Of a stretch of 64,000 nucleotides of DNA, positions 1,320 to 29,528 are shown one piece after another. The position numbers and the translations under genes are program-made. The notes beneath the pieces are model-generated. The model was not told where the DNA came from. It ran no database searches and saw only the letters and a list, made by a program, of their open reading frames with translations. How positions within the stretch are numbered: the stretch's first letter is position 1; each line of letters opens with the position of its first letter. The DNA comes from Gemmatimonadota bacterium (lineage in GTDB: Bacteria; Gemmatimonadota; Gemmatimonadetes; Longimicrobiales; Gaopeijiaceae), in NCBI GenBank assembly GCA_028875075.1, contig JAPPGF010000009.1, positions 1-64,000 of the forward strand, given 5' to 3'.

Positions 1320-3902
1320 ATGTCTAACGTGCAGCAGGACATTCGGGATTGGCTTCGTCAGCAGCAGGATTGGTTCCAACAAGCGGCGGAGCAACTGCTT
1401 TCTTCGGACAATCCGGGGGACGTCAACATCCAAGTCATTACGGATCGTCTAAAGACGCCAGACGGACAGCAGAAGACCACACACAGGAAGTTCAATACTC
1501 TTACGGAATCGCCTAGTAGTTCTGCCGCCGAACTACGGTTGGCTGCGATCGGCTACATCACCGGGATCGAAAATCTAGCACCGCAGCGTCCGCTGGAATT
1601 TGGATCTGGCAATCTCGTTGTGGTCTACGGTCATAACGGTTCCGGAAAATCTGGCTTTACCCGCATCCTCAAACGAGTCTGTGGGAAGCCCCGTGCCGCC
1701 GAGCTCAAGTCCAACGTATATGAGAGTCCGCCTGCGAAGCGGGAGTGCCGGGTTGAATACCAGTTGGCCGGAGAGATTCGGTCGGTTGTATGGCAGCCGG
1801 ATGACGCACCTATAGATGACCTCAGATCGGTCGATATCTTCGACTCTCAGGAAGCATCCTTCTACCTTAGCAGCAAGACTGAAGCGTCATACACGCCACC
1901 GTTCATAGCCCTATTCGAAGAACTGGCGAGCGTGTGCGATCTCGTGCGGGGGAAGCTGCAGGAGGAGCAGGACCGCCTTGTCAGCAGGTTACCCGACCTG
2001 CCTGAGACCTATGCGCTTACGGAAGCCGGACACGCGTACCGAAGCCTGCGACGAGATTTCAGCGAGGGAGCCGTCCAGCGCCTCACGGAATTCTCCGAAG
2101 CTGACCAAGCTGCGCTCGACGAGTTGAACGCCCGACTCGCGGCGGTGGATCCCGCAGCGTCTGCGGACGAGAAGCGAAGGCGAGAGCAGGAGCTCCGGGG
2201 GTTCATCGGACAACTCGATACAGCCGCATCCGCCGTGAGTTCGCAAGCCGTGCAGGTGATTCGTCATCTGTATGAAGATGCGCGGACCAAGCGACAGATC
2301 GCCACAGAGTCTAGCTTCGCAGAATCAGCCCATTTGGAAGGCGTTGGTTCGACGGCGTGGAGCCTCCTCTGGGATGCTGCGCGGGAATACTCGCGGACGG
2401 CGTACCCGGGACGGGACTACCCCGTTACGGACGAAGCGCGCTGTGTGTTGTGTCAACAGGACCTGCCGCCCGAAGCTCGTCAACGCTTGCGTGACTTCGA
2501 GGCGTTCGTTCGCGGCGCCGCTGAGGCGCATGCCCGAGAAGCGGACCACGCATACCAGAAGGCGATCAATGACCTTCCCCAAATACCGACCGAGGCCAAT
2601 ATCGTTACGCAATGTGCCGCGGCGGGACTCACCGGGAACGAGTTGCTTGATACGTTGCGGACTTTCTGGAGCATGGTGGCCGACGCCCGCGAGCAACTCC
2701 GCAACGGTGACCATGGAACTAGCGCCGCAGCCCCCGTTACCAAACTACGGGACGAGCTGGTATCACAGTTAACCCTTCAAGTCGAGGAGTTGGCGTGCGC
2801 CGCACAGCAGGATGCTGACGATGCAGCGGCTCTTGATCGGGATAAAGCGAATCGTGACAAACTAAATCTCGAAGCTCGACGATGGATTGCCAGCCAGGCT
2901 CGTGCTGTCCAGGATGAGATTGCTCGCCAGCGCAAAGTGAAGGAATACGATGAGTGGAAGAAGTCCGCCAACTCGCGATTCGTCTCCAACAAGATTCGGC
3001 AGATTACCGAGAAGGTCATTACTCAAGCGTATGTAGATCGCTTCAACCGCGAACTCAAAGCGCTATCTGCTCAACACATCAGAGTGGAGCTCGTAAAGGC
3101 CGGGGCGACGAAAGGGAAAATGCTTCATCAACTTCGTCTCAAGGGCGTTCAGACCGACCAAGATCTCCCGGCATCAGTACTCAGCGAGGGTGAGCGTCGC
3201 ATTGTTGCCTTAGCCGCTTTCCTAGCGTCGCTTGTAGAAAAGCCACAGGCGACTCCCTTCATCTTCGATGATCCGATTTCTTCTCTGGATCAGCACTTCG
3301 AAAGTCATGTGGCAAGGCGATTGGCAGAACTAGCTAAGAGTCGTCAAGTGTTGGTGTTTACGCACCGCCTATCGCTTTACGGGGCCATGCAGGACGCCGC
3401 AACGAAGGTTGGACCCGCAGGGAATAAGGAGTACCTGCAACAGCGGCATATTGAATCGTTCTCGGGAGTTGCAGGCCAGCCGGCAGATGAGGCGGTTCGG
3501 AATGCGAACACGAAGAAAGCCAATAACATATTGCTGAATCGTCTTGATGATGCTCGTACCGCCGGACAGGAGCACGGGGCCGATGCTTACCGGATTCAAG
3601 CGCAAGGAATTTGCACAGAATTCCGAATTCTGTTAGAACGAACAGTTGAAGATGATCTCTTGAATCAGGTTGTACGGCGACACCGACGAAGCGTTACTAC
3701 CGACAATCGGCTGGGGTCACTTGCACACATTAGCGATGCTGATTGTCGGTTTATCGACGCGCTGATGACAAAGTACTCGACGTACGAACATAGTCAGTCC
3801 GCCGAGACACCGATTTCCCTACCAGAAGAACCGGAACTGCGAGCTGATCTGGAGTCGCTGGCGGGGTGGCGAGAGGAATTCAAGCGACGTGCGAAAGCGT
3901 GA
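1320..3902 (+). CDS. RloC/PrrC-like zinc-hook ATPase (candidate anticodon nuclease)
   Basis: An 860-residue SMC/Rad50-like ABC ATPase of the AAA_13 type. Walker A is GHNGSGKS near residue 104, the ABC signature LSEGE near 620, Walker B FIFDDP near 646, and an H-loop-like FTHR near 680. A long helical region is interrupted near 375-378 by C-x2-C (CVLC), the mark of a Rad50-type zinc hook as found in RloC. The C-terminal part has an R-x3-E (RILLE, about 768-772) with a His about 30 residues on (near 802), resembling the Arg-Glu-His set of PrrC/RloC anticodon nucleases. Those enzymes are phage-defence effectors that cut tRNA anticodon loops and often sit in restriction loci; a methyltransferase relic lies immediately downstream. 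Anticodon-nuclease activity is inference. The gene is more AT-rich than its surroundings, suggesting transfer. The ATG follows GGGATAGGG closely. Confidence 0.8.
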   Translation: MSNVQQDIRDWLRQQQDWFQQAAEQLLSSDNPGDVNIQVITDRLKTPDGQQKTTHRKFNTLTESPSSSAAELRLAAIGYITGIENLAPQRPLEFGSGNLVVVYGHNGSGKSGFTRILKRVCGKPRAAELKSNVYESPPAKRECRVEYQLAGEIRSVVWQPDDAPIDDLRSVDIFDSQEASFYLSSKTEASYTPPFIALFEELASVCDLVRGKLQEEQDRLVSRLPDLPETYALTEAGHAYRSLRRDFSEGAVQRLTEFSEADQAALDELNARLAAVDPAASADEKRRREQELRGFIGQLDTAASAVSSQAVQVIRHLYEDARTKRQIATESSFAESAHLEGVGSTAWSLLWDAAREYSRTAYPGRDYPVTDEARCVLCQQDLPPEARQRLRDFEAFVRGAAEAHAREADHAYQKAINDLPQIPTEANIVTQCAAAGLTGNELLDTLRTFWSMVADAREQLRNGDHGTSAAAPVTKLRDELVSQLTLQVEELACAAQQDADDAAALDRDKANRDKLNLEARRWIASQARAVQDEIARQRKVKEYDEWKKSANSRFVSNKIRQITEKVITQAYVDRFNRELKALSAQHIRVELVKAGATKGKMLHQLRLKGVQTDQDLPASVLSEGERRIVALAAFLASLVEKPQATPFIFDDPISSLDQHFESHVARRLAELAKSRQVLVFTHRLSLYGAMQDAATKVGPAGNKEYLQQRHIESFSGVAGQPADEAVRNANTKKANNILLNRLDDARTAGQEHGADAYRIQAQGICTEFRILLERTVEDDLLNQVVRRHRRSVTTDNRLGSLAHISDADCRFIDALMTKYSTYEHSQSAETPISLPEEPELRADLESLAGWREEFKRRAKA

Positions 3903-4011
3903 GTGGAGGGGCTCGACATGATACGTGTGCGCGGCGAGGTGTGCACAGGGACCGGAGTTCCTATCGGAGGGGGTGTGAACTTGGGCTCCTCCTTCTGGCT
4001 GGCCGGGAGCA

Positions 4012-4173
4012 ATGAACGGCGTGACGGACCACGCAATACGGATGTTCAGCTTCGTGGGAGACACAGTACTGGACCCCTTCACCGGGACGGCATCCACACA
4101 GGTCCCTGCGGCGGGAGACCTGCCGGGTGCGCTTGCGCTCGACCTCGGATGCGCGGGCGGTCCACGCCGCTAG
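4012..4173 (+). pseudogene. Relic of an N6/N4 DNA methyltransferase
   Basis: Read from the ATG at 4012, a 53-codon frame contains IRMFSFVGDTVLDPFTGTAS. This is the C-terminal S-adenosylmethionine-binding segment of beta/alpha-class amino-methyltransferases (consensus around DPF-G-G-T-T, usually preceded by 'RLIRMFSFVGDTV'). The rest of the gene is absent: upstream sequence has no matching frame and downstream it runs into a TAG at 4171. It lies 110 bases after the zinc-hook ATPase, on the same strand, which fits a former restriction-modification locus around that ATPase. Recognition rests on one motif. Confidence 0.55.
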
Positions 4174-4438
4174 CGTCGGGGATGGGCTCGGCGACCGCGG
4201 CGCCCAGGACGCTGAAGGGCAACGAGCCCCGCTGACCAGGGTTGTTGGAAGCAACTGCGCGTTTGGGCAGCTCTGGGGGCATGTAAGACGTTTGCTTGCC
4301 AATGATCCAACGGACACTACGAGTTACGTGTGCTCTTGAGAGGTTGCCGTTCGCAACAAATCGAGCAGCACGCAAGTAAGGAAGTGCTCACGGCGACCGT
4401 TATCCCATAGGCGATTCTTTTCTTGTCCGCGCGGCCCA

Positions 4439-4567
4439 CTGACGGAGAAGGCGACCAACCGGAAGACCACCCCGGCCATGGCGGCCGGCCTGGAGAGTCT
4501 GCCGTGGACGATGCTGGATGTGGTTGATCGGATGGACCCGGACCGCAGGCTATTCTCGGCTGCCTGA
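4439..4567 (+). pseudogene. Possible transposase C-terminal fragment
   Basis: A short frame reading KATNRKTTPAMAAGLESLPW followed by a Trp-Thr-x-x-x-Val stretch and a TGA at 4565-4567. The 'TPAMAAGL....WT...' pattern is, to my memory, typical of the C-terminus of a DDE transposase (IS1-like), where it normally reads 'TPAMAAGLTDHVWTVEEL'. Nothing upstream restores a catalytic domain, and no terminal inverted repeats are visible. It is best read as debris of an old insertion. Confidence 0.35.
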
Positions 4568-4774
4568 TTACTGTTACGTCAAACCAGCCCACTACCCGCA
4601 TCCTACGAGCTACGGGAGACGACCGTTGGGCCGCAGGGTTACATTGAACCGATTGCCGAGCGGCCGGGCCGCTGCGCTCGCGGCCGGCGACGCTAGCGTC
4701 CTCACGAGCGTAGGGCGCCGCTCCGGCCCCTCGGACGCTTGCCCACGTACGTGAACCGACTGGAGGTCTGCCAA

Positions 4775-5902
4775 GTGCCGGGGCTCTTACCGAACGTCGA
4801 TCCCGACGGGCTGCTCGAGTACTCCGTCGTCTATAACGACCGTACCCTCAACCACATGTCGCGGTCGTTCCGAAGCGTCATGAAAGAGATCTCGGCGGCG
4901 CTCAAGCGGGTCTACAACGCTCGCGCGGTCGTCTTGGTGCCGGGCAGCGGCACCTACGGCATGGAGGCCGTGGCTCGCCAGTTCGCCACCGGGCAGTCCT
5001 GCCTGGTCATCCGCAACGGATGGTTCAGCTTCCGTTGGACGCAGATCCTCGACATGGGAGCCATCCCGTCCGGTCAGACCGTGCTCAAGGCGCGCCAGGT
5101 GGGCAGGGGCAGCCGGGCGCCCTTCGCGCCGGCGCCGATCGAGGAGGTCGTGAGTGCGATCGCCGCCGAGCGCCCCGGGATCGTCTTCGCGCCCCACGTC
5201 GAGACCGCCTCGGGGATGATCCTGCCCGACGACTACGTGCGGCGGGTCGCCGACGCCGTGCACGAGGCCGGCGGCATGTTCGTTCTCGACTGTATCGCGT
5301 CGGGTGCGGTCTGGGTGGACATGGAGGCCTCGGGCGCCGACGTGCTGCTCAGCGCGCCGCAGAAGGGCTGGACGGGCTCGCCGTGCTGCGGACTCGTCAT
5401 GCTGGGCGAGCACGCGCTCGAGCGCCTGGACGCGACCACGAGCACGAGCTACTCCTGCGACCTGAAGAAGTGGCTGGAGATCATGCGGGCGTACGAGGGA
5501 GGGGCTCACGCGTACCACGCGACCATGCCCACGGACGGGCTCCGCACTCTGGCCGCCGCCATCGCCGAAACGGAGCGCTTCGGCCTCGCCGCGGCGTCCG
5601 AGCGTCAGGACGAGCTGGGCGGCCGAGTGCGCGAACTCCTCGTGGGGCGAGGCTTCCCGAGCGTGGCTTCCCAGGGCTTCCAGGCGCCCGGGGTCGTCGT
5701 GAGCTACACGGATGACGACGACATGAGCAACGGGAGTAAGTTCGCCGAGGCCGGCGTCCAGGTTGCGGGCGGGGTCCCCTTGCGGTGCGACGAGCCGGCG
5801 GACTTCAAGACGTTCCGGGTCGGGCTCTTCGGTCTGGACAAGCTGGCCGACGTAGAGGGCACGGTCCAGTCGTTCCGCCGGGCGCTGGAGCGGATCGGTT
5901 AG
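4775..5902 (+). CDS. Class V PLP aminotransferase (serine/alanine-glyoxylate type)
   Basis: A fold-type I, class V aminotransferase of about 375 residues. The PLP-binding lysine is in SAPQKGW near residue 200, the cofactor-phosphate region near 60-65 is GSGTYGMEAV, and the PLP-stacking Asp is in FVLDCIAS near 172. Family members transfer amino groups from alanine or serine to glyoxylate or pyruvate. The start is taken as the GTG at 4775 because GGAGG (4762-4766) stands eight bases before it; the longer TTG frame from 4739 has no such site. It stands alone between relics and a small membrane gene, with GC typical of the chromosome, so it is probably a resident gene flanked by acquired DNA. Exact substrate is unknown. 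Confidence 0.8.
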   Translation: MPGLLPNVDPDGLLEYSVVYNDRTLNHMSRSFRSVMKEISAALKRVYNARAVVLVPGSGTYGMEAVARQFATGQSCLVIRNGWFSFRWTQILDMGAIPSGQTVLKARQVGRGSRAPFAPAPIEEVVSAIAAERPGIVFAPHVETASGMILPDDYVRRVADAVHEAGGMFVLDCIASGAVWVDMEASGADVLLSAPQKGWTGSPCCGLVMLGEHALERLDATTSTSYSCDLKKWLEIMRAYEGGAHAYHATMPTDGLRTLAAAIAETERFGLAAASERQDELGGRVRELLVGRGFPSVASQGFQAPGVVVSYTDDDDMSNGSKFAEAGVQVAGGVPLRCDEPADFKTFRVGLFGLDKLADVEGTVQSFRRALERIG

Positions 5903-7502: not shown

Positions 7503-10500
7503 CTATACGCTCAAGACCCCCATCCAACACACCACGCCTACGTCGTCGGCCGAAATCTCTTCTTTCTCCGGTGCCTTTTCCACCTTCCGTAACCCGAACA
7601 TCTTCACGATATTCACAATCCGCTTCGCAGCCCCGCCACGGGTGATCTTCTCATCGTCAAGCAAGCGCTTGACCTCACCCAGCGCTTTCCGCACCGGTTG
7701 GCTTCGCCCCACACCCAACGCCTCGTAGGCCTCAGCCCCACCCAGCGGCACAGCGATCGTAGGATCTGCAAGCAGTTCGAGCCCCCATCGCTGCATAGGT
7801 CCCAGCGACTCGGACGAGCCGCCGGACGCTTCTTTGTTGTGTTCCTCCACGATCGATGCAACCGCCTTCGCCCAAGCCACTTCCAAATCGATCGGGGAAT
7901 CGTCCACGCCGGGAGCAAGGCCCGGATCGATCCGCCGAAGAATGGATGCCGGCGCTGTTATCACCTCACCCGCATGATCCACATATCGCCAATACCGCTC
8001 ACCCTTTGCCCGGCACGCGAAAAACACTCCAGGCGCTCCGAAGGACGGCGTCTCTGGACCCTGTCGGAACGTGGCCCCGATCCCCCAAGGCAGGCCTCTC
8101 AATTCCTCCCCCCGCCCCTCGTCAAGTTCGCGCGTCAGCTCTGCCCGCAAAGCCTCACTTGAGAACTCGTGCGTCCCTCCAGCCTCATTATCCTCGTCAA
8201 GCAGAGTGGTATCTCCATCAACCAAACGCTGGGCATACGCACGCGCTTCCTCCTCCGTCTTGTCGATGACCTGGACCTCCATGCCATAGGGCCGCGCCGC
8301 GACAATCTTTCGCCGGATCGCGATCTCAAGTTTGAGTATTTCCTCAAGATCACCCTGCTCGGGTAGCATGGTAGTTAGGTATACTTCGTCGTGCGGGCTC
8401 TTGAGACGGATGACTCGCCCGTAGCGCTGGACCATGCGCTGGGGATTCCAAGGCATGTCGTAGCTGACGACCGCAGCCGCCTGCTGCAGATTCTGACCCT
8501 CAGACAGGACATCGTTACTGAGGAGCAGGTCCACCTCGCCGTCGCTTGGCTGGTATCCCGGTCGCACGACGGTGTCCGGACAAAACCGCGACAGCAGCCC
8601 GGTGCGTACGTCAGGCGTGGTATCCGCCCCGATCACGGTGACTCGCTGCCGGCCGGCGACCTGTTTGGGTAGCTTGTCATGAAGGTACTCGACGGTGTCC
8701 GCAAAGGTGCTGAACACGACGACCTTTTGCGAAGCGGATTCCTCCAGGACGCGGCGAAAAAGAGCCAACTTGGGATCGCTCTCGGCGTCGAGCTTCTGAA
8801 GCCGCTCCTGGACCCCCGACAAGAGATCCCTGTCGTGTTCAACATCCTCTCGGAAAGTTCGCACGTAGGCGTCCACCGACTCGGCGGCGAGCCCCTCGTC
8901 GAGCCTCTCTTCCAGCCACTGCGCCGTCGCCGTCTCGTCCAATTCCGCCTTTGCTGCTTCGCGCAGAGTCTCGCGCCCTAGGGTATATCCTTCGTCCCAG
9001 GCTTCCAAGAAAGCGTGATGGGCTGCGAGTATCCGGTTGACTGTCAACAGGCAGGCGTACCAGCACGACTCGAATCGCTTGAGGATCCCCGACTGGAGCA
9101 AGGCACTCAGGGCCGCTTCCCCGGGTTCCTCAGCGGTTTCCCTGCGATACCGACTGGGGCGGTAGCGCGCCATCTTCAGGGCGCTGATCCGCGTCGTGAT
9201 CTCCAACACGAGGTTCGGATAGGTTTCATCGAGGTCGTAGCGTTCGGTGGTCAAGTGGGGTGTAGGAAACGATACCGGTGTACCATCGGGGAAGGTCGCG
9301 CCCGGATACCGAGATTCGATGAAGCGGCGGTCTCGCCTCACGCTGACCATGTCAGCTAGTGGGAACAGCACGTCAGGGTTCAGGTTTTCCGGGTCGCGTT
9401 CATTGGCTCCGGCGCTCAGGAAGAGGTGACGCAGGGAAGAGATTCCGTGGGCCGCGAAGGCCTGGTCGTGGCGCGCGAAAGCCATAACCATGTGGTACAG
9501 GTCCCAAAGCCCGTTGTTGATGGGTGTGGCGGTCAGGAGTAGCAAAGCCTTTTCTTGACCGCCCAGCAGGCGCGACATCGCGCCGTACCAGGTTGTTCCC
9601 GGATTCCGCAGGGCGTGAGCTTCATCGAAGATGATCAGCCGGTAGGCGTCCTTGTCGCTGGAGAGGACGCGGCGGCGGTTCGTGACCTCCGGATTGGCAA
9701 GCTGTTCGTCGGCAGCGAACGCCTGATAGCTGACTACCTGTGCAGGAAGCCGGCTCTGGTTCAGTCGGTTTTCCCATTGGTCCTTGAGCTGGGCCGGAAC
9801 AACGACAAGCACGTGTTGCCCACGCCGGACCGCGTATTCTTCCACGAAGGCGAGGCCAATCTCGGTCTTGCCTGTACCGACGCCGTCGGCGAAAACGACT
9901 CCCCGGTGCCGGTTTACGATACTAGTGGCCCGACGAAAGCCATCTTCCTGAAACGGCGCCAGGTTCACTGCTTGCGGCAACTCCTGATCCTCGTCCAATT
10001 GGTCGCCGAAGAGCTCTAGGAGAGCGCGGAGGTAGACCGTTCGCGGGTCGATGAGGCCGACGTCGGGGAAGAGGAGGTCGTAGAGATCGTCCTTGTAGTT
10101 GCTCGCTTCTTCCCACAACGCGTCGAACCAGTTGACGGCCCGTTTCGCGATCTCGGGATCGTAGTGCACGAGGCCGAGTTCCAGATTCTGCCACATTCCG
10201 GCTGCAGTGAGGTTCGCCGACGTGACCAAGGCGGCGCGCGCGTCGATGTGGTCACCGAACAGGTACGCCTTCCCGTGCAGGAACTTCTTGACGTAACGGC
10301 GGACATCCACGTTCGGGCGATCGAGCCAGTCCTGGATGGCCAGCAGCTTCTTGAGCGCTCGGCTCTTCGGAAAACGCGCGAGATCTCTTTCCTTGCGAAG
10401 GGCCAAGAGCGTTCGCTCGAAGAGGGTCCCGGGGAACTCTCCACCGAGGCCGGAGCTAGGAGCCGTGCCTAGGAGTAGCCGAGTAGCGCGGTCTTCATCG

Positions 10501-10658
10501 ACCGACACTGCGACGTGGTGGAGGCCCCCGAGGTTAACGTAGCCCGTGGCCACCGACAGCTCATGACAATCGTCAAGATTCTTGGTCAGGTAGACGAGGC
10601 CATCACCGTGCCCAGTGTCAGCGTGGAGGTTGTCGAGTAGGGACGGGCGTCCTGCCAT
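7503..10658 (-). CDS. PLD-family nuclease fused to SNF2-type helicase
   Basis: About 1,050 residues. Residues 1-170 carry a phospholipase-D-like nuclease motif: H-G-K at about 128-130, then SANLTAAG with Asn and a following Glu. From about 235 comes a superfamily 2 SNF2-like helicase: Walker A DGVGTGKTEIG near 258, DEAH (IIFDEAHALRNP) near 345, LLLTATPINNG, then the second RecA domain with VVFSTFADTVEYL, LSEGQNLQ and an arginine-rich motif VI (QRYGRVIR). The C-terminal 200 residues have no motif I can name. It begins two bases after the stop of the methyltransferase gene, so the two are co-transcribed and probably translated together. The ATG at 10658 is preferred to a TTG at 10664. Similar helicases occur in DISARM-like and other methylation-linked phage defences; cleavage of unmethylated DNA is the likely role. 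Confidence 0.85.
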   Translation of the reverse strand: MAGRPSLLDNLHADTGHGDGLVYLTKNLDDCHELSVATGYVNLGGLHHVAVSVDEDRATRLLLGTAPSSGLGGEFPGTLFERTLLALRKERDLARFPKSRALKKLLAIQDWLDRPNVDVRRYVKKFLHGKAYLFGDHIDARAALVTSANLTAAGMWQNLELGLVHYDPEIAKRAVNWFDALWEEASNYKDDLYDLLFPDVGLIDPRTVYLRALLELFGDQLDEDQELPQAVNLAPFQEDGFRRATSIVNRHRGVVFADGVGTGKTEIGLAFVEEYAVRRGQHVLVVVPAQLKDQWENRLNQSRLPAQVVSYQAFAADEQLANPEVTNRRRVLSSDKDAYRLIIFDEAHALRNPGTTWYGAMSRLLGGQEKALLLLTATPINNGLWDLYHMVMAFARHDQAFAAHGISSLRHLFLSAGANERDPENLNPDVLFPLADMVSVRRDRRFIESRYPGATFPDGTPVSFPTPHLTTERYDLDETYPNLVLEITTRISALKMARYRPSRYRRETAEEPGEAALSALLQSGILKRFESCWYACLLTVNRILAAHHAFLEAWDEGYTLGRETLREAAKAELDETATAQWLEERLDEGLAAESVDAYVRTFREDVEHDRDLLSGVQERLQKLDAESDPKLALFRRVLEESASQKVVVFSTFADTVEYLHDKLPKQVAGRQRVTVIGADTTPDVRTGLLSRFCPDTVVRPGYQPSDGEVDLLLSNDVLSEGQNLQQAAAVVSYDMPWNPQRMVQRYGRVIRLKSPHDEVYLTTMLPEQGDLEEILKLEIAIRRKIVAARPYGMEVQVIDKTEEEARAYAQRLVDGDTTLLDEDNEAGGTHEFSSEALRAELTRELDEGRGEELRGLPWGIGATFRQGPETPSFGAPGVFFACRAKGERYWRYVDHAGEVITAPASILRRIDPGLAPGVDDSPIDLEVAWAKAVASIVEEHNKEASGGSSESLGPMQRWGLELLADPTIAVPLGGAEAYEALGVGRSQPVRKALGEVKRLLDDEKITRGGAAKRIVNIVKMFGLRKVEKAPEKEEISADDVGVVCWMGVLSV

Positions 10659-10660
10659 GG

Positions 10661-13600
10661 TCAAGTGAGCTGTTCTAGGCGGGCGATGAATGCGGAGCGG
10701 TACGCCGGCGCAACTGCATCTTCGGTGAAGTCCCTAAAGATCACATCTAGATCAGCCACCGTCAGGTTCCAGGCACGAGCGATCCGGGCGTCTATGTTGA
10801 CACGAAGTTCCGTGCGGTCGGCAGGGACGAGGGAACCGTAGTTCACGCCCGTAGCCACCGCGAAGTCGGTGAAGCGGTCGTCAACGGCTGAGAGGCGCGC
10901 CGCAGCCTGGGCGATGTCGTGGAAGTCGTCGTCATCGAGTTCGGGGACAAAGAGTCCTTCGAGGAGGAAGAAATTGGCGTGAATCTCGACGAAGCGTCGA
11001 GCTTGCCAATCGAAGGGAAGGCTGTTCATGACGCCCAAGCAGACAGCTTGATCGACTGGCGTGCCGTTTGGGAATGCCAAGTACGGCGCGGTGTTGGTCA
11101 GAAAAACGCCAGGTGGGATGAGACACGACCTGATTGTCCGCGAATCGGTCGATCGCGCGACGTCCCGAAATGCCACCCGTGCACGTTTGAGTTCTGTTAA
11201 CACTGCCTTCCGACGACGCGCGACCGGCGTTTGGGACGCGATCAGCGATTTCAAACCCGGCCTGGACTTCCGCACCTTCTTCAGAAGGTCGTCCGTAACC
11301 AGGCACGCTCGCTCTCCAGCGCCGCTTGGGTCATACTGGTCGAAGCTCTCGCCCTTCCACAGCGGTTGGCCTTGACTCTGGCCTCGCCAGAATCGCCGAT
11401 CTTTGGTTTCGTTCAAGTCTCCCTGTACCGGAAAGCTCAACCACTGACCGGCGCCGTATGGGAAGCGATGTCCGGTCCGTAACTTGGCCAACAGGTCAGC
11501 CTCGTCCTGAGACCGAAGCATTGGTGTCTCCCGCCCTGGGCCGAACGTGGACGTCGTGAGACGAACGCCCTCCGATGAGGCCTGTCGGTTCCATTCGGTT
11601 AGGGACCTAGCCGTCCCGGCTACCTCGATTCGATGCGTATGCCCCGGCGTTGCGCGCTCCGCCACGACCAACGCGATGGAGTATTGCGGATGCGTATCGA
11701 AGATCCAGCTCCTGTTGTTCAGCAAGAAGTCAATCCGGTGGGTAACCGAACTCACGTACAGCCACTCCCTGAATCCTTCCGATCCCTTGGTGTTGAAAGC
11801 CGTTCGCGGCAGGACTACGCCAATGAAACCGGAACGTCGTACTATGCTCCGATACCGCTGGCAAAAATACTTGTAGAGGTCAGGGAATGCGCCCATCTCA
11901 TCGTAGTCCCCCGCCGCGAGCGCCGTCCGGGCAATCTCCAGGTCGTTTTGTCGTGCTAGAAGCTGGGCCGGCAAGTCCGGTCGCTCCCGCGCTACTTCGG
12001 CCACCGCGGCGTCGCGTTCGGCCTCGCCAAGGCTCTGGATGCCCGGACGCCACATCCCATAGAAGGACAGTTCTTCGACTCGCACTTGCTCCCACGGCGG
12101 ATTACCGACCACCACATCGAACCCTGGACGTTCCCGGGAGAATACCTGTGGGAAAGCGAGTGGCCAGTGGAGAAACCGATTCTCGTTGGACAGCCTTTGC
12201 GCGTGCCTAACGAGCGCTGTGGTATCCTTATCGACTCCCTCGATCACAGCCGCGCCGTGCAGCTCCGTGTGCTGACGGGCGTCGGTCAGCCCAAATTGTT
12301 CCGACGTCCACAGGTCGAAGAGGCGCTTCAGACCTGCGGTCACCCGATTCACGTCCTGGTCCGCCTCACGACTGGCCGCGACTTCCTTTGGCGTCCGGTC
12401 TTCCATGTCGGCGAGCTTGCGGACGATATCAGTGGCCATATCCAGTTGTCGCTTCACGACATCGGTAAAGAAACCGCCCTTCCCGATGACGGCATGCGAG
12501 TCGGCCACTCCGAACAGAGAATCGCCCACCACCACGTTGCGTCCGAGATAGGAGAGGGGGAGTCCCGGCACGAAGGAGGCAAGCCAGAGGGACAGGGTAG
12601 CGACCTCGGCACCCATTGGGCTGACGTCCACACCGAACACGCAGTGCTTTACGAGCAGACGCCGTAACAACGACATGTCGTCAATCTCGACCCCAAGGGC
12701 GGCAGCGCTCCGCAGCCGGTCCATCGCTGCAACGATGGCAGGCAGCGGGTGCTCGGCCAGGAAGCGCACCGTCCGCTCGGCCAGGGTCTCAGCAACCTGC
12801 ACGAGGAAGTGGGCGCTCCCGCACGCCGGGTCCACTACAGCAAAGGACAAGAGGTGCCGTGCCGCCTTGTTGGGGTTGGTCTTGGCAAGCTCCGCTACCT
12901 CCTTGAGGTGCGATTCGTAGGCTGGTAAGACTGCCCCTGTCACCAGATGGCGCACGATCTCCACCGGCGTGTAGTACACGCCGCCAGCCTTTCGTCCTCC
13001 CTGATGCGTTTGCCACAGGAGCCCGCCCGCCTTGATCTCTGCGTCACCTGGCGCTCTGGCGACAACATAGTGGTCTTTCCGAGCGTCATAGCGCACCGCC
13101 CGCTTGGTCAGAGACAATCGAAGGCTGAGCAGCGACTCATAGGTGTGCCCAACGTGCGCGATTTCCAGCGTCGAGAAGTCGGCACCGCGCCCGGTTTCCT
13201 GGTCCTGGCCTATGGCGACGAGAACCCTCGCGAACTCTGGGTCCCGGAGCTCCATCCGTTCCAGCAACTCGGCGCCGTCAAAGTCGTGAGACGCGAACAG
13301 GGCGCCGTCGTATGCCGGTACGTCCCACGCGGGGTTGCCACTTCGCATCGCGCGAACCAAGCGCACGAAGCCGGACCAGAGCGCCGAGGACGCTGGACTC
13401 AGCTTGGACTGCGTTTCGTAGGCTTCGCGAACAAGCGACGAGAGTGACACCTGCTTGTACGTCCGATTGTTCATCGGAAGATGGCCGGCGCTCTCACAAA
13501 AGAGGATGAAAACGACCCGGAACACCAACGTGAGTGCCGCGCGCTCGAGTTCTTCGCGTTCACTGTCTTTGGTCAGGTCAATCCTGCACTCCTTGGCCCA

Positions 13601-14551
13601 AGCCTCCATCCCCGCAGCAAGGGCCGGAAGAGCATCCTGACGGATCGTGCGGTCTAATCGTTTGTGGAGCTTGACCCCAAAGTCACGCGCTTCACTTCGA
13701 AGAGCCGAGAATCCGCCGTCGGCCAGTGATGAAGGTGCAAGCAGTGCCAAGAATGGCATTCGGTCCTTCCCCAGTAGTGGCGTATCCAGTTCCAACCACT
13801 CGGTCGCCGGAGAAGCTGACCCTGCGTCGAAGAGACGGAAGCGACTGCCTTGGGTAAGAATGCCAAAGCGAGTGCCTTGGGCCTCACAGTCGTCTAAGAG
13901 AAGGCCCTCCGGGGGCCGTCCCTGCCGGTCAACTCGGGTGAGGTCGCGAGCGGCGGTTTTGGCGTGAATCACCGCGATCGGTCGGCCGTTGTGGCGAGCG
14001 AGATGCCCCCGGTTCGGGAGTTGCTGGAGAGTGTAGCCAAGCCCAGTGAGCAGTCGGCGCCACGAATCGCCTGATCTGATGTCCCGGACCTGGTCGCTCG
14101 CGGAAGCCCAGCGGGACGGGTTCCCCTTAAGGCGGTATTCAAGCGTGTGCCGCGTCAGGAGACGATTGAGGGTCAGGCCGTCACCCCCGATTCGGATGAG
14201 GTCATCGGCGAGTTGGCGGACAGCGTCGAATGCCGGGAGCGTCGCCGCTTGTTGAAGCGAGCCTGCCAGCAGCTCGGCGTTGACTGATTGGATGGGACGA
14301 TCGCCCAGAGTCGGGCCCAAGACCCAAATCTGGCCTGGGTGTGGTGGGTCATCTGCGATCAACAGGAGTGGCGTGGCGCTGCCCCCGACGCGCTCCCTCC
14401 AGCAGACCTGCATGAAGGTGTTGCTCGATCGCTGTGCTACGGCGACTTCGATGGGTCCGATGGCCACGGCCTGGAAGATTCCGGGGCGCACGGACCGGGG
14501 GTGGGCGAGGCCGATTTGGGCGAAGTGCTGGATGAGTTCAGATGCATTCAC
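10661..14551 (-). CDS. Large Eco57I-like adenine-specific DNA methyltransferase
   Basis: A 1,296-residue gamma-class N6-adenine methyltransferase. Motif I DPACGSAHFL is near residue 572 (AdoMet binding), a following acidic segment is VFGVDVSPMGAEVA, and the catalytic motif IV NPPW (VVVGNPPWEQV) is near 817. The last 350 residues are probably the target-recognition region. The N-terminal 400 residues resemble the nuclease-bearing region of type IIG enzymes, but the place where an E-x-K would be expected reads IAVIHAK (about 190), so cleavage is doubtful and would then fall to the helicase partner. The start is a GTG with no clear Shine-Dalgarno. It lies first in a two-gene unit with the PLD-helicase, and downstream of the OLD nuclease. 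This arrangement recalls class 1 DISARM drmMI/drmD and the predicted Hma systems, without their other parts. Confidence 0.85.
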   Translation of the reverse strand: MNASELIQHFAQIGLAHPRSVRPGIFQAVAIGPIEVAVAQRSSNTFMQVCWRERVGGSATPLLLIADDPPHPGQIWVLGPTLGDRPIQSVNAELLAGSLQQAATLPAFDAVRQLADDLIRIGGDGLTLNRLLTRHTLEYRLKGNPSRWASASDQVRDIRSGDSWRRLLTGLGYTLQQLPNRGHLARHNGRPIAVIHAKTAARDLTRVDRQGRPPEGLLLDDCEAQGTRFGILTQGSRFRLFDAGSASPATEWLELDTPLLGKDRMPFLALLAPSSLADGGFSALRSEARDFGVKLHKRLDRTIRQDALPALAAGMEAWAKECRIDLTKDSEREELERAALTLVFRVVFILFCESAGHLPMNNRTYKQVSLSSLVREAYETQSKLSPASSALWSGFVRLVRAMRSGNPAWDVPAYDGALFASHDFDGAELLERMELRDPEFARVLVAIGQDQETGRGADFSTLEIAHVGHTYESLLSLRLSLTKRAVRYDARKDHYVVARAPGDAEIKAGGLLWQTHQGGRKAGGVYYTPVEIVRHLVTGAVLPAYESHLKEVAELAKTNPNKAARHLLSFAVVDPACGSAHFLVQVAETLAERTVRFLAEHPLPAIVAAMDRLRSAAALGVEIDDMSLLRRLLVKHCVFGVDVSPMGAEVATLSLWLASFVPGLPLSYLGRNVVVGDSLFGVADSHAVIGKGGFFTDVVKRQLDMATDIVRKLADMEDRTPKEVAASREADQDVNRVTAGLKRLFDLWTSEQFGLTDARQHTELHGAAVIEGVDKDTTALVRHAQRLSNENRFLHWPLAFPQVFSRERPGFDVVVGNPPWEQVRVEELSFYGMWRPGIQSLGEAERDAAVAEVARERPDLPAQLLARQNDLEIARTALAAGDYDEMGAFPDLYKYFCQRYRSIVRRSGFIGVVLPRTAFNTKGSEGFREWLYVSSVTHRIDFLLNNRSWIFDTHPQYSIALVVAERATPGHTHRIEVAGTARSLTEWNRQASSEGVRLTTSTFGPGRETPMLRSQDEADLLAKLRTGHRFPYGAGQWLSFPVQGDLNETKDRRFWRGQSQGQPLWKGESFDQYDPSGAGERACLVTDDLLKKVRKSRPGLKSLIASQTPVARRRKAVLTELKRARVAFRDVARSTDSRTIRSCLIPPGVFLTNTAPYLAFPNGTPVDQAVCLGVMNSLPFDWQARRFVEIHANFFLLEGLFVPELDDDDFHDIAQAAARLSAVDDRFTDFAVATGVNYGSLVPADRTELRVNIDARIARAWNLTVADLDVIFRDFTEDAVAPAYRSAFIARLEQLT

Positions 14552-15018
14552 GAGGAGGCGTCAAGGAGGTAGTGAGTGCTTCGGGGAAGATCCTGGGGGT
14601 TGCCAGAGATGACGGAATTTGCCTTGGTCAAACCACGTAGGGCCAGCCCAAGATAGGGCAACGTCTTGTCGTAATCCCCGTCACAATCGAGCCTGGCAGC
14701 GGGCGCAAGGCTGACTGGTGGGCACCTGCCGAGGGGGTCACGTTGTGACTCCTGAGTTGGCCGTCTGGGCACTGGCACGTAGGCGCCGAAGCCTGGGCGG
14801 CGGTTATCCCCTGGTTTGCCGGAGGTTGTCCCTCTGTATTCCGACGATTGCGATCAGCGATTCTGACAAGACGCCGTTAGCGGCAGGCGTGAGCAGGCAC
14901 ACCCACTCCCCCCCCTGTCCTGCGCCTAGTCGTGAGAGGATACCTCGTACCCTAAGGTTACTGCGCCAGTCCCTGACTCTACCTCGGCCTGTTCTTGGCG
15001 CTCCAACGGGCGAGCGAC
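14552..15018. other. Intergenic between OLD nuclease and methyltransferase
   Basis: No gene seen on either strand. The 467 bases probably hold the promoter of the methyltransferase-helicase unit. I cannot pick a convincing sigma-70 site. Confidence 0.4.
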
Positions 15019-15651
15019 TCAGCCCGGGCTCCTGTTCTCTGGTAGCACACTCAGTCTCCCCTGTAGTCGCTCAAGCAGGTCTCTTCCCACTTGTGTCCGT
15101 GCGGGTTCGGTGGCACTCAAATCTGGCCGGTCCGAGAGCACATCAAGGACCGCGTATGCCAGGTCGACCTTTGGGGGAACAGCGCTCCCATTGTCTTCGC
15201 ACCAGCGTCGGATAGCAGAATACCGATTCGATGGTGGGAGATCCTTGTTCCTAAACGGGTGTTTCGGTGTGCCGTACCACTGCCTTATGTGTCGGTTGAC
15301 TGCTTCTACTAATACGTCTCTATTGACGAGATCCTCCACTTGTTTCAGTGTGCTGTTGCTCGCGGCTATCGAAAATATATCCGCACGAGCCACGCCACAA
15401 TCACGGAGGAACTTTCGGAGGTCATGGCCGCCGTCATCGTTATCGATGAGATAGATGACTTGAGTCCCATGTCCGACAAGAATCGGGATATGGTAGCGAT
15501 TCGCCTCAGATAGCCCATGAACCACTTGAAAATCGAGGGAATCTCTGTCCGAAATATCTCTGAAGATTGTGGGTAGAAGAATCATGTCTGAAGGGCCTTC
15601 AACAAGCACTGCGTTGCGCAAAGGAAAGAATGCGAGCGCACTGGCGCCCAT
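15019..15651 (-). CDS. OLD-family nuclease, TOPRIM half (frame-separated from its ATPase)
   Basis: A 210-residue open frame with a TOPRIM catalytic domain: the first glutamate in NAVLVEGPSD and the metal-binding acidic pair in YLIDNDDGG. In class 1 OLD nucleases this domain directly follows the ATPase in one chain. Here it is in the -1 frame relative to the ATPase ORF that overlaps it. Removing one A from the nine-A tract at 15679-15687 (minus-strand sense) joins the two into a single 650-residue protein, continuing SEKKPGLSPLIFGMGASALA. The usual OLD length is 550-700 residues. So this is either the 3' half of a frameshifted gene or is expressed by slippage; initiation at the internal ATG is also possible. 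Metal-dependent DNA cleavage is the family activity. Confidence 0.7.
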   Translation of the reverse strand: MGASALAFFPLRNAVLVEGPSDMILLPTIFRDISDRDSLDFQVVHGLSEANRYHIPILVGHGTQVIYLIDNDDGGHDLRKFLRDCGVARADIFSIAASNSTLKQVEDLVNRDVLVEAVNRHIRQWYGTPKHPFRNKDLPPSNRYSAIRRWCEDNGSAVPPKVDLAYAVLDVLSDRPDLSATEPARTQVGRDLLERLQGRLSVLPENRSPG

Positions 15652-16972
15652 GCCGAATATTAGTGGAGATAATCCTGGTTTTTTTTTCAGACCAAAAGCG
15701 GTTTGAAATCGTGCTGACCGGATCTGAGATATGCGGCTTTACGAGTCGCACACCTGCGCCCAAATCTTCTGGAAGACATCCCATGGAGTGGGTGGAATAG
15801 ATCACTTGCCTGGCGACCGCTTGACGTGCGAGCATGCTTACCATATCGGCCTGCGCATCATAGTGGAGATGTGTTTCCGCTTCATCGATTAGGAGCAACG
15901 GATCTCTAATACTTTGTTGGAGGCAGAAGGCCATGAGTGCGACGAATTGGCGTAGACCATCGCTCCTCTCAGAGATTGTGCTGAATCGGCCTCCTTCATC
16001 TTGAATCTGGAGATGAAGATCATAGCCATTGATGCGGAATTCGACTTTCACTTGTGACTGATTCCATTCCTGGGCAAAGACCTCAGCGAGTCGGTGGTTC
16101 GCACGAGTCTGCTGTGTATTCACCTCCGCTTGATCGTCGTGCGCTACTGCTTCGTGAAGGGTCGATAGATCGAGCCCCGCAACATCCGCCAGATTTCCGA
16201 GCGCTAGCGGTGGGGTGGCATGAACCTCTTGCAAATGATACGTCGACAGAAGATTCCTACTCTCCTCGCTGAATGGTGCGACGACAGGGATTCGTTCGCG
16301 TAGGCGATCCACCGCGATTTGAGAAGGGTGTGGCTCTCTCTCAATCTCGACCAACTTTGTCAAGGCCTCAGGCAGCCCTGCTATGTACGCGGGCACCTTG
16401 AATGGCAGGTTATCACGCAGTGTTGCAGCCAACTCCGACATCTCAGATATCGACGTGAGCGTGGGTGTTGTCAGTGTTTGTCCCGCCTCTGTATTCTCTA
16501 AGTCTGCAATCAGTTCTCTGAGGGAAGCCAGTATATATTGGGAATCGTCATGTTCGAGGACAGCGAGCTTTGGATTATGAACGACCCGAGACATTTGACG
16601 AATCGCTTTGATCCGAGGTCTAAGATTTCTCTTGACTGCGGGTCGTAGTTCAAATTTTCTGCCTGTGTGGGCATACTTGGACACAAGTAACCATTTCACT
16701 GACTTACCGTCTGGCAAGTCAAGGATAAGGTTGCGGTCTTCGTCGTCCAAGTAGAACGCCCAGACCAACACAGCGCCCGGTGGTTCGTAGTCGCGAGTAA
16801 GCTCGCCACGTTCGAATATATTGTCGTGGGTGAGATGCTCTATTGATTGTAGAATCGACGTCTTACCAGCCTCGTTCGGTCCCACCAGCGCCACAAGCTT
16901 AGAATCTATCTTGATCGTCTGACTGGACTTGAACCGCTTATAACCGTCTAGTTGTAACCACCTAAGGCGCAT
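15599..16972 (-). CDS. OLD-family ATPase half
   Basis: About 457 residues with the ABC-type ATPase of OLD (overcoming lysogenization defect) nucleases: Walker A LVGPNEAGKTSIL near residue 35, signature-like SERSDGLRQF, Walker B LLLIDEAETHLHYDAQ, and a His switch in YSTHS. After STISNRFWSEK the frame enters a nine-A tract and ends in an unrelated, Arg-rich tail of about 30 residues, while the TOPRIM domain continues in the neighbouring frame. The ATG at 16972 is chosen because AAGGAAG stands five bases before it; the TTG at 16999 lacks this. The gene is more AT-rich than the chromosome. OLD proteins act in phage defence, alone or with a partner such as in Gabija. Here it is followed on the same strand by the methyltransferase and PLD-helicase. 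Confidence 0.75.
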   Translation of the reverse strand: MRLRWLQLDGYKRFKSSQTIKIDSKLVALVGPNEAGKTSILQSIEHLTHDNIFERGELTRDYEPPGAVLVWAFYLDDEDRNLILDLPDGKSVKWLLVSKYAHTGRKFELRPAVKRNLRPRIKAIRQMSRVVHNPKLAVLEHDDSQYILASLRELIADLENTEAGQTLTTPTLTSISEMSELAATLRDNLPFKVPAYIAGLPEALTKLVEIEREPHPSQIAVDRLRERIPVVAPFSEESRNLLSTYHLQEVHATPPLALGNLADVAGLDLSTLHEAVAHDDQAEVNTQQTRANHRLAEVFAQEWNQSQVKVEFRINGYDLHLQIQDEGGRFSTISERSDGLRQFVALMAFCLQQSIRDPLLLIDEAETHLHYDAQADMVSMLARQAVARQVIYSTHSMGCLPEDLGAGVRLVKPHISDPVSTISNRFWSEKKTRIISTNIRHGRQCARILSFAQRSAC

Positions 16973-22629: not shown

Positions 22630-23208
22630 ATGGGCCTAGTGGCCTGCGGAACCGGGAACTACGCGGCGTTCCACGTGGACGAACCGTTCAGCGAAGGGAA
22701 CGCCGGCGCGCACTCCACCAGGGATTTCTGCTACTACAATGTGCTCCGGGTGTGGAAGGACATGGATCCCTCCTTTCCCTTCCTCGATTCGCACGGGAAG
22801 GGCTACGACGTCAGGGACGGCAGCGACTGGGAGGGCACGCTCGAGGCTCGCATTCGTGGGCGCCTGCGCGACGCACAGAACCTGGTTCTCTTCCTAAGTT
22901 CGGCCACGAAGCACTCGCGGGCGCTCCGGGAAGAGGTGGACTACGGAGTCAACGGCCTCGGACTGCCGATCATCGTGGTGTATCCGGATTGCAGTGAGAG
23001 GTCCGACATCGTCCTCTGCGAGTCCAGCCGAGTAAGGAAGGAGATCGAGGACCTGTGGGGCAGGTTGCCCGGGCTCCGGGACTCGATGGAGAGGGTTCCC
23101 ACGATTCACGTTCCGAACAAGAAGCAGCTGATCCGTCATGCGCTGCAAACCGATGACTTCAAGGCGGGCACCAAAGGGAAGCCCGGGATCTCCTTCTATC
23201 CGTGCTAG
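22630..23208 (+). CDS. TIR-like (DUF1863 / ThsB-type) protein
   Basis: A 192-residue protein of the TIR-like DUF1863 family. It has the opening Y-A-A-F-x-V-D-E-P-F-S-E segment, then DFCYYNVLRVWK, the FPFLDSHGKGYDVRDGSDWE stretch, LVLFLSSATKHSRALREEVD (the second strand and catalytic-helix region with the key Glu), and GLPIIVVYPD. ThsB of the Thoeris phage-defence system belongs to this fold and makes a cyclic-ADP-ribose-type signal from NAD+. No ThsA-like effector (SIR2 or Macro) is present nearby, so it may act alone, with the downstream GmrSD-like protein, or regulate something else. The ATG at 22630 lacks a well-placed ribosome-binding site; a slightly later start is possible. Confidence 0.75.
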   Translation: MGLVACGTGNYAAFHVDEPFSEGNAGAHSTRDFCYYNVLRVWKDMDPSFPFLDSHGKGYDVRDGSDWEGTLEARIRGRLRDAQNLVLFLSSATKHSRALREEVDYGVNGLGLPIIVVYPDCSERSDIVLCESSRVRKEIEDLWGRLPGLRDSMERVPTIHVPNKKQLIRHALQTDDFKAGTKGKPGISFYPC

Positions 23209-23550: not shown

Positions 23551-23715
23551 TTGGTTGAACTGTCCGATGTGGAGCTTGTTGAGAAAGTCCTTGCTGGCCA
23601 GCTTGTTGCCCAAGATCCTACAGACGACCCTGGCATTGCCCGGCTGGAGCGAATCAAGACAAACGGCGCGAGGGTGCAACAGATGAGTAAACGAGGGAGT
23701 TCCTATGCAAGCTGA
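23551..23715 (+). CDS. Small ORF overlapping the start of the GmrSD-like gene
   Basis: An open frame runs from a stop at 23527-23529 to a TGA at 23713-23715. From the TTG at 23551 it encodes about 54 residues beginning LVELSDVELVEKVLAGQLVA and ending SKRGSSYAS. The amino-acid composition is protein-like (acidic amphipathic helix, then basic tail), unlike the Arg/Ser-rich shadow frames nearby. Its end overlaps the ATG of the downstream gene by eleven bases, suggesting translational coupling. No ATG is available, so it may instead be the 3' end of a truncated gene. I do not recognise the family. Confidence 0.35.
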   Translation: MVELSDVELVEKVLAGQLVAQDPTDDPGIARLERIKTNGARVQQMSKRGSSYAS

Positions 23716-25636
23716 CGATCACGCCGTCGAGGAAATATTGGCCGAAGGACGCCGCTTCATGGTGCCGCTCTATCAACGTAAGTATCAGTGGCATGACTCC
23801 CAGATCATCCCGTTTTGGGAGGATGTTGAAGCGAAAGCAGTTGAAGTCCTAGAAGGTGCGAGCAAGTTTCAGCATTACATGGGGGCGCTGATCTTGTCGC
23901 CCATTGGCGAAGCTGCACAGATCGGTGTAACGCCCAAAGTCCAGGTCGTAGATGGCCAGCAACGCCTCACGACTTTCCAACTATTTCTCGCTGCCATTCG
24001 AGAGGTTTCCCGAGACTATGAGTGTAATGCTGTCGTGGAGCATGTCGGCGATTATCTCTTCAACAAACTGAAGTCGAAGGACACGCATAGGCTAACTAAG
24101 TTCAAGCTAACACCGACCCCTTCCGATCAATCGGTCTTTTTCGACATCGTGAAAGAGGAATACAGCACGATCAGGATCCGATATCGCAAGTACTTCTGGG
24201 GTGGACGTGTCCCAAAGAACACCCAAATTCGTGCATTGCGCGCGTACGAACAGTTCTATCGACTTATCCACCACTTCGCTAAATTTGGATCTGTCGAATT
24301 GAATACGGACAGTAACGAAAGTAATGATGCCCAAGTCATCACGGATGAGACTGATACTAATCAAGCTATCCAAAGGCGCCTGGAAGCCATGCTCACGGCG
24401 CTCCTCAATCGCATGAAATTAGTCGTCATAATTCTGGGAGAAGATGATGATGCGCAGGTCATATTTGAGACTCTAAATTCGAAGGGAGAACCGTTGCTCG
24501 CCATGGATCTCGTGCGAAACAATATCTTCTATCGCGCGGAGCGCGAGCAAGCGGAAGTCGAAGATCTTTATCAAGAGCTATGGGATCCATTCGATCAGCC
24601 TTGGTGGAGGGAACCAGCGCCTTTCGCTCGTCCCAAGCGACCTCGAATCGACCATTTTCTTGCCCATGTACTAGCGGCTGAAAGTGGTCAGAGAATATCG
24701 ATGCGTGAACTCTACGCCGAGTATCGATCCTTCGCGGTGCCCAAGGGTAATCCACGATTCCAAAGCGTCGAGGATGAACTCCGAGTGCTTGGGAAATATT
24801 CACCCAGCTACGAGACTCTCGAAGGGCGCCTTGCGGAAGACGTGGATTTACACTGGCTAGGGAGAAAACTCTCGGCGTGGCAGGTCACTACGGCCTATCC
24901 AATCGCGATGCAGGTCAGCGGAAGCCGTATAGACAAGAATGAGATGCGTATTCTGTACCGGTTAATCTATTCGTACATCGTCCGCCGTGCGCTATCTGGC
25001 TTGACGGCCAAGAATCTCAATCGGGTGTTCCACAGTATTTCGCAGGCCTTTTTGGAGGAAGGCCCTTCCAAGGATACCTTGGAAAACTACTTCGCGGATA
25101 GAGTCGGTGACAGCACTCGTTTTCCGGGTGACCATGAATTCCGCCAAGGGATCGTTTCCAAGCCCGCGTACACTCTCGCTCCGCAGACTCGGATCAAGGA
25201 TGTCCTATGGGAATTGGAAGAGGCTAGTCGTTCGACGTTCGCTGAAACGACCCCAATGCCTCCCAGACTGTGGACAGAACACGTGCTTCCCATTTCATGG
25301 ACTGAGGATTGGCCATTTGAGGACGGGGAATTCGTTGAACGCTGGTCGAATGACCCGAAGGTTGAGAGTCGCAATAGGCTACTCCACACCCTTGGTAATC
25401 TTACTTTATTGACGGACATTCTGAATATCTCGGCCGGAAACAAAGGATTTCTTGAAAAGCGCGATAAGCTTGAAGAACACACTGGGTTATTTCTCAACAA
25501 ATGGTTCCTAAAGCAGAATGAGTGGCACGAGATTCACATCAGGGAACGTAGCGAAGCTCTAGCAGATATGGCCGTGAAGATCTGGCCGTCGCTCACAGTT
25601 CCAGAAATCGAACCAGACCGAGCGGATGACTCGTGA
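23705..25636 (+). CDS. GmrSD-like type IV restriction protein (DUF262-DUF1524)
   Basis: A 643-residue fusion. The N-terminal DUF262 domain has PLYQRKYQW (about 21-29) and VVDGQQRLTTFQLFL (about 81-95), the ParB/Srx-like nucleotide-binding core that hydrolyses NTP. The C-terminal DUF1524 domain has the HNH-type motif EHVLPISW near 525, followed by NRLLHTLGNLTLL and NKGFLEKRD. GmrSD enzymes cut phage DNA with modified (glucosylated hydroxymethyl) cytosines, and related fusions serve in several defence systems. Length matches single-chain members. The ATG at 23705 follows GGGAG. The gene is clearly more AT-rich than flanking chromosomal genes, so likely transferred. It follows a TIR-like gene on the same strand. 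Confidence 0.88.
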   Translation: MQADDHAVEEILAEGRRFMVPLYQRKYQWHDSQIIPFWEDVEAKAVEVLEGASKFQHYMGALILSPIGEAAQIGVTPKVQVVDGQQRLTTFQLFLAAIREVSRDYECNAVVEHVGDYLFNKLKSKDTHRLTKFKLTPTPSDQSVFFDIVKEEYSTIRIRYRKYFWGGRVPKNTQIRALRAYEQFYRLIHHFAKFGSVELNTDSNESNDAQVITDETDTNQAIQRRLEAMLTALLNRMKLVVIILGEDDDAQVIFETLNSKGEPLLAMDLVRNNIFYRAEREQAEVEDLYQELWDPFDQPWWREPAPFARPKRPRIDHFLAHVLAAESGQRISMRELYAEYRSFAVPKGNPRFQSVEDELRVLGKYSPSYETLEGRLAEDVDLHWLGRKLSAWQVTTAYPIAMQVSGSRIDKNEMRILYRLIYSYIVRRALSGLTAKNLNRVFHSISQAFLEEGPSKDTLENYFADRVGDSTRFPGDHEFRQGIVSKPAYTLAPQTRIKDVLWELEEASRSTFAETTPMPPRLWTEHVLPISWTEDWPFEDGEFVERWSNDPKVESRNRLLHTLGNLTLLTDILNISAGNKGFLEKRDKLEEHTGLFLNKWFLKQNEWHEIHIRERSEALADMAVKIWPSLTVPEIEPDRADDS

Positions 25637-26477: not shown

Positions 26478-26642
26478 CCCCGCACGGGTTCCGCTAGCGT
26501 CTTCGCCGGCCCGCGCCCGAGCCCCTCGGCGCGCGTGTGGCCGGTCGGTGCGGGTTCGGTGGCGCGACAGACGGCCAGCGCCGACCTTACTCATGACCCG
26601 GCGGTAGCCGGTACGTGACGACATCCCGTGGGCGAGGTGCAT

Positions 26643-29512: not shown

Positions 29513-29528
29513 GCGGGACGACCGGCCG

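Follow-up and report, generated by a model that had tools for sequence, protein, structure and literature searches.

A stretch of 64,000 nucleotides from a Gemmatimonadota bacterium (GenBank assembly GCA_028875075.1, contig JAPPGF010000009.1, positions 1 to 64,000), referred to here as the window, contains a methyltransferase gene and a helicase gene that probably constitute a stand-alone ATP-dependent restriction-modification system of two genes. Its ancestry would be that of BREX/DISARM, and its nuclease an HKD domain of the PLD family. The methyltransferase (1296 residues) and the helicase (1053 residues) are encoded by intact open reading frames on the minus strand. With the helicase start at ATG 10658 the spacing is 2 bases, which agrees with the initial annotation of two large same-strand genes two bases apart, while a start at TTG 10664 gives a 4-base overlap. 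Between them the two proteins have the parts that ATP-dependent restriction-modification requires: a methyltransferase that carries the specificity, a motor for double-stranded DNA and, joined to that motor, a nuclease. As judged from the sequences, both genes carry intact catalytic motifs and are strictly paired and tightly spaced. The pair is provisionally treated as un-named; a literature search, with most subscription journals outside its reach, found no description of a stand-alone pair of this kind.

A genome-wide scan with the helicase returned 43 orthologous loci, with 41-82% identity where the match is near full length, in metagenome-assembled genomes labelled Gemmatimonadetes, Actinomycetota, Acidobacteria, Chloroflexi and others. 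In every informative locus (36 of 36) the methyltransferase is the upstream gene; the other seven either extend less than 0.8 kb upstream or hold no more than a fragment of the helicase. The spacing between the two genes is mostly -10 to +60 bases. The exceptions are loci L004 and L029, with insertions of about 7-9 kb, and L017, L030 and L043, where the insertions measure about 0.8-1.0 kb. The genes found between the partners in L004 (1201-9893) and L029 (3195-10001) are unrelated (DUF5131, DUF2326 ATPase, ATP-grasp, sulfotransferase and DUF4143 ATPase). No neighbour protein of any kind recurs beside the pair at the orthologous loci, except chromosomal genes common to a few Acidimicrobiia, and no neighbours are common to different lineages. 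Furthermore, the distance matrices of the methyltransferase and the helicase are closely correlated (Mantel r 0.983, 24 pairs), which speaks for joint transmission; as part of the correlation stems from the shared ancestry of the carriers, it does not by itself prove an interaction.

More distant pairs, at about 30% identity, are found on plasmids of both bacteria and archaea (Euzebya, Halorubrum lacusprofundi, Halalkalicoccus, Rhodococcus, Paenarthrobacter and Mycobacterium gallinarum). Similarly, three viral contigs (L114, L115 and L116) contain the complete pair at about 30% identity, and on their evidence a (pro)virus or a misbinned island may move it. The HKD residues, Walker A, the DE.H motif and the methyltransferase motifs I and IV are kept throughout the aligned members, and the HKD residues do not vary even between members that are about 30% identical.

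The methyltransferase matches the Pfam families Eco57I (60.5 bits, cut-off 25.3) and N6_Mtase above their curated cut-offs, and its motifs follow the gamma order X (GGVYYTP, 523), I (DPACGSAHF, 574) and IV (NPPW, 817), confirming the 1,296-residue gamma-class adenine methyltransferase of the initial annotation. Among PADLOC models the type IIG model scores best (377 bits), and DrmMI reaches 225 bits over part of the protein; the NCBIfam PglX family gives 20.5 bits against a cut-off of 500. An AlphaFold model covers residues 1-1199 with a mean predicted local distance difference test (pLDDT) value of 80, and its best Foldseek matches are the BREX BrxX/PglX structures 8c45 and 9ewz, with a low full-length template-modelling score (TM-score). 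In the N-terminal domain no conserved D...(E/D)xK triad (HAK in the window copy) and no match to a nuclease family was detected among 18 members, and we infer that this domain is a degenerate nuclease. The MmeI spacer domain is matched weakly in 12 of these 18. A bifunctional type IIG enzyme was also considered and was rejected by motif, no nuclease motif being present in the methyltransferase chain of the 18 members. Since no nuclease triad is conserved in the methyltransferase, the HKD domain is the only recognisable cutter of the pair. Between close relatives, residues of about 930-1020 change fastest (50-57% versus 65-90% in neighbouring segments), as would be expected of a target-recognition region.

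The helicase matches PLDc_2 (residues 116-184), SNF2-rel_dom (residues 175-398) and Helicase_C (58 bits) above the curated Pfam cut-offs, in keeping with the initial annotation of a helicase with its own PLD domain; ResIII is also above its cut-off and overlaps the SNF2 match. The best PADLOC model is 'HKD+Snf2' (161 bits), followed by DrmD (108), HmaA (82) and PbeA (50), and the NCBIfam DrmD model NF038317 gives 133.6 bits with a cut-off of 610. The Walker A lysine is invariant in the 18-sequence alignment, and the top fold match of the AlphaFold model is RapA. The features of the pair, together with those of the adjoining OLD gene, are collected in Table 1.

Table 1. Features of the methyltransferase-helicase pair and of the OLD gene beside it, in window coordinates.
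Feature	Position	Strand	Basis
Gamma-class N6-adenine DNA methyltransferase with an architecture like that of PglX/BrxX and MmeI; leading gene of the two, starts at GTG	10661..14551	minus	Pfam, PADLOC, fold matches
N-terminal alpha/beta domain of the methyltransferase, where type IIG enzymes have their nuclease; presumed non-catalytic	13784..14176	minus	Model secondary structure, alignment columns
Methyltransferase motif I, DPACGSAHFL, residues 574-583	12803..12832	minus	D574, A576, G578, S579, H581, F582, L583 invariant
Methyltransferase motif IV, NPPW, residues 817-820	12092..12103	minus	Invariant in 23 sequences
Hypervariable segment ahead of the presumed target-recognition part, residues 1033-1062, between anchors FPYG and PLWKGESF	11366..11455	minus	Repeats in several relatives, none in the window copy
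RapA-like SNF2 helicase with a fused HKD (PLD-family) nuclease; second of the two genes, start TTG 10664 or ATG 10658	7503..10664	minus	Pfam, PADLOC, fold match
HKD active-site stretch, single copy: H130, K132, S149, N151	10212..10277	minus	Invariant, 18-sequence alignment
SNF2 N-terminal motor lobe, Walker A (GVGTGKT) and DEAH	9471..9968	minus	Pfam match; motifs invariant or nearly so
Helicase C-terminal lobe, QRxGRxxR motif	8403..8771	minus	Pfam Helicase_C; residues invariant
OLD-type ABC ATPase half, outside the pair, ATG 16972; ends out of frame shortly past the run of nine A	15599..16972	minus	Pfam AAA_15, AAA_21
Run of nine A, site of the OLD frame loss	15679..15687	minus	Sequence
TOPRIM half of the OLD gene, other frame, outside the pair	15019..15651	minus	Pfam OLD-like_TOPRIM 26.3 bits, cut-off 23.2

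The order of events in such a system can be proposed from the parts. The PglX-like methyltransferase would recognise a sequence and methylate adenine in the host DNA. On incoming DNA, an unmethylated site would lead the methyltransferase, as the specificity subunit, to recruit or license the helicase. Driven by its RapA-like SNF2 motor, the helicase would then travel on the DNA, and its single HKD domain, expected to dimerise, would cut the unmarked DNA. The N6-methyladenine (m6A) activity, the complex formation, the cutting and the trigger by unmethylated sites are what we infer for the pair. Several points weigh against this restriction-modification scheme. The confidence of the helicase model is only moderate (mean pLDDT 72), and over the full length neither model reaches a high TM-score with its best match (0.25-0.35), so that the fold matches of both proteins rest mainly on single domains. 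In addition, a stand-alone methyltransferase-helicase pair could regulate instead of restricting, and additional host genes could be required.

A side finding, which may outweigh the main one in importance, concerns the hypervariable segment of the methyltransferase. At this site, L002 (9031-9152) has a perfect CCAG tract of 30.5 copies and L010 (4839-4875) an AG tract of 18.5 copies, the methyltransferase being out of frame as assembled in both, and L008 and L026 have shorter GA tracts that keep the reading frame. Perfect inverted repeats of 23-26 bases are located at the same site in L030, L035 and L043 (shuffles of each reach at most 9-10), and the window copy has neither a simple nor an inverted repeat at residues 1033-1062. 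The occurrence of separate repeat tracts at one position suggests the repeated evolution of an on/off switch, that is, phase variation; the repeat-bearing relatives are all metagenome assemblies, and an assembly artefact is possible. A wider proposal can be advanced tentatively: that a PglX-like methyltransferase and an HKD-RapA-like helicase make up a widespread, un-named minimal two-gene defence system of bacteria, archaea and viral contigs, the methyltransferase of which has repeatedly gained simple-repeat or palindromic switches at one site ahead of its target-recognition region.

Upstream of the pair lies an OLD gene, which the initial annotation took for a single ATPase-TOPRIM nuclease gene. 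Its two halves are in fact in different frames, with the break at the run of nine A. A Gordonia relative is a single open reading frame of 627 residues that aligns with both window pieces (26% and 25% identity), and the frame change in the window OLD therefore reflects a broken gene, a sequencing or assembly indel, or a slippage site. By this comparison a natural pair of separate ATPase and TOPRIM genes is less likely than one gene that has been broken, with an assembly indel or slippage as further possibilities. Among the 43 orthologous loci no match above 60 bits to either half was found. The OLD ATPase is likewise absent from 59 relatives (E 1e-15) and from 395 genomes of the phylum (E 1e-12), the window's own genome excepted; four weak OLD matches were detected on plasmids and none in phages and viral contigs. 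A Walker-A scan of the flanks revealed ABC-type ATPases adjoining the pair in two loci, L002 and L020. In L002, one of the two closest relatives, an ABC ATPase and a DUF3226 gene (PDC-M38A/B; 3936-5779) are directly upstream of the methyltransferase, in the same slot as the window OLD, and in L020 an AAA_21 ATPase is directly downstream of the pair; L029 has its DUF2326 ATPase within the insertion. These ATPases belong to different families and stand at different positions, which defence islands would explain, and they do not imply membership for OLD.

The initial annotation had proposed that OLD nuclease, methyltransferase and helicase belong to one three-gene system, for which one can cite the neighbouring genes on the same strand, the ABC-type ATPases of other families beside a few relatives, and OLD-type ABC modules that have been described as BREX backup effectors (PMC12839542). 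Yet the OLD gene is frame-broken, 467 bases separate its stop from the start of the methyltransferase downstream, its DNA is less rich in G+C (about 49-55% versus 60-65%), and OLD accompanies the pair at none of the 43 loci, an outcome that the initial annotation had itself named as refuting; as a third component it was rejected, and the three-gene proposal, now largely refuted, is very improbable. OLD is best regarded as a passenger, independent of the pair and apparently inactive, that has settled like others in this defence-rich region. Rather better placed, and still improbable, is an accessory methylation pair that acts as an epigenetic switch outside defence, in which the helicase aids the methyltransferase. 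On/off switching of this sort is suggested by the simple and inverted repeats that relatives carry at a single site, but the conserved nuclease is hard to explain, and the carriage of the pair on plasmids, on viral contigs and among defence genes also argues against it.

The main rival of the two-gene restriction-modification system is a BREX-like exclusion without cutting, where the host is methylated, the motor blocks the replication of unmethylated DNA and the HKD domain is secondary or structural. In its favour, the closest fold is BREX PglX for the methyltransferase and RapA for the motor, similar to what is described for BrxHII and ARMADA (PMC12839542, PMC12458937). Nevertheless, exclusion of this kind is unlikely, given HKD residues that do not vary across so wide a divergence and a locus devoid of PglZ, of the DUF499 ATPase and of MZB proteins.

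Some further copies deserve mention. An ImmA/IrrE-type (Peptidase_M78) gene is inserted between the methyltransferase and the helicase in two distant-clade copies (L106 11492-12748 and L107 9182-10429), and in L032 (10232-11425) one with a helix-turn-helix (HTH) follows the helicase; in all three it is a possible regulator of the pair. A fused methyltransferase-helicase chain in genome G028, suggested by an open frame of 1966 residues, was rejected, as an HTH-ImmA-type gene separates the two. Genome G027 retains, at 63% identity, just the first 164 methyltransferase residues (L110 2851-3342), the remains of a pair that has decayed; this relative also has a second, distant copy, in which the methyltransferase is fragmented.

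Elsewhere in the window, an 860-residue ATPase (1320-3902) matches PDC-S06, an uncharacterised candidate in PADLOC, over nearly the whole length (1012 bits). On the other side, a ThsB-type TIR protein (22630-23208; 200 bits) is followed by a GmrSD type IV restriction enzyme (23705-25636), and an RND heavy-metal-type efflux operon (OEP, HlyD_D23, ACR_tran; 26628-32657) lies downstream of the defence genes. A comparison with a congener and another relative, aimed at the limits of an inserted island, showed no shared flanks, and an Rfam scan of window positions 1-30000 gave no match.

Comparison with known systems was extended to the source genome, which is about 92% complete, with control genomes that were positive in the searches for DUF499 and MZB/DUF1998. 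Neither DUF499 (PF04465) nor the MZB/DUF1998 domain (PF09369), which is characteristic of DISARM DrmB and the YprA-like helicase of ARMADA, is present in this genome, and its single PglZ-domain protein is a 610-residue open reading frame on another contig, with no such neighbour recurring in relatives. The pair is therefore not filed under BREX, BREX-related (BR), DISARM, ARMADA or Hma. The PADLOC search recommended by the initial annotation gave HKD+Snf2, DrmD, type IIG and DrmMI as the best models; its suggestion that no named system fits is supported, with OLD excluded from membership, and its self-contained modify-and-cut pair is supported as a conserved two-gene unit.

Class 1 DISARM has a related SNF2 helicase, as the DrmD score indicates, and perhaps a related methyltransferase, DrmMI matching over part of the protein and scoring below the type IIG model, but DrmA and DrmB are missing here, the PLD domain is fused to the helicase, as the initial annotation had pointed out, and the DrmD family score is far below its cut-off (134 versus 610). 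BREX shares with the pair a PglX/BrxX methyltransferase, the closest solved fold, and a RapA-like motor (BrxHII, type 3), whereas the pair has no PglZ in its locus, no conserved partner gene and a PglX family score well short of the cut-off; no recurrent neighbour that could be a BrxC ATPase was seen beside the pair, no direct BrxC search having been made. In ARMADA a BrxHII-like helicase and a PglX-like methyltransferase are neighbours, but the system includes the YprA-like helicase, and the accessible text mentions no HKD for ArmA (PMC12458937). Hma was rejected as well, since the HmaA score is lower than those of HKD+Snf2 and DrmD and no ATPase is conserved beside the pair; the Hma methylase is not among the best 25 PADLOC matches. 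PbeA/CxC-ABC systems also fuse HKD to an SF2 helicase, sometimes with a methylase, but have a CxC ABC-ATPase and a DndE-like protein at their core (PMC10853773), and the helicase scores only 50 bits with PbeA. As for the OLD family, the window gene has its ATPase and TOPRIM halves, but in different frames and unlinked to the pair elsewhere.

Two resemblances bear on how the pair may work. Type-2 BR systems have a helicase with an N-terminal HKD and a Swi2/Snf2 motor together with an N6-methyltransferase, for which a modify-and-cut activity has been proposed (PMC12839542), and the window helicase has the same order, PLDc_2 followed by SNF2, beside its own N6-methyltransferase. BR systems are built on a DUF499 ATPase, to which Type-2 adds DUF3780 (PMC12839542), whereas the pair lacks DUF499 and has no DUF3780-like recurrent neighbour, no separate DUF3780 search having been made. 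By analogy, the pair probably works in the manner proposed for Type-2 BR. Type III restriction-modification is likewise a two-gene operon of a specificity-bearing methyltransferase and a motor-nuclease, and an N-terminal HKD replacing the usual nuclease has been noted in some type III-like helicases (PMC2292703), but the pair combines a gamma-order PglX-like methyltransferase with an SNF2/RapA-like motor in place of the Mod and Res families. BREX and DISARM need many proteins, the division of labour among which is unsettled. If the proposal is correct, machinery of this type can work without ATPase, phosphatase or MZB partners, and a two-gene relative that shares their methyltransferase fold and motor and adds an explicit nuclease would offer a minimal model: just two purified proteins would be enough to assay recognition, protection and attack. 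Such a relative would further link the PglX/DrmD world to the classical ATP-dependent restriction enzymes.

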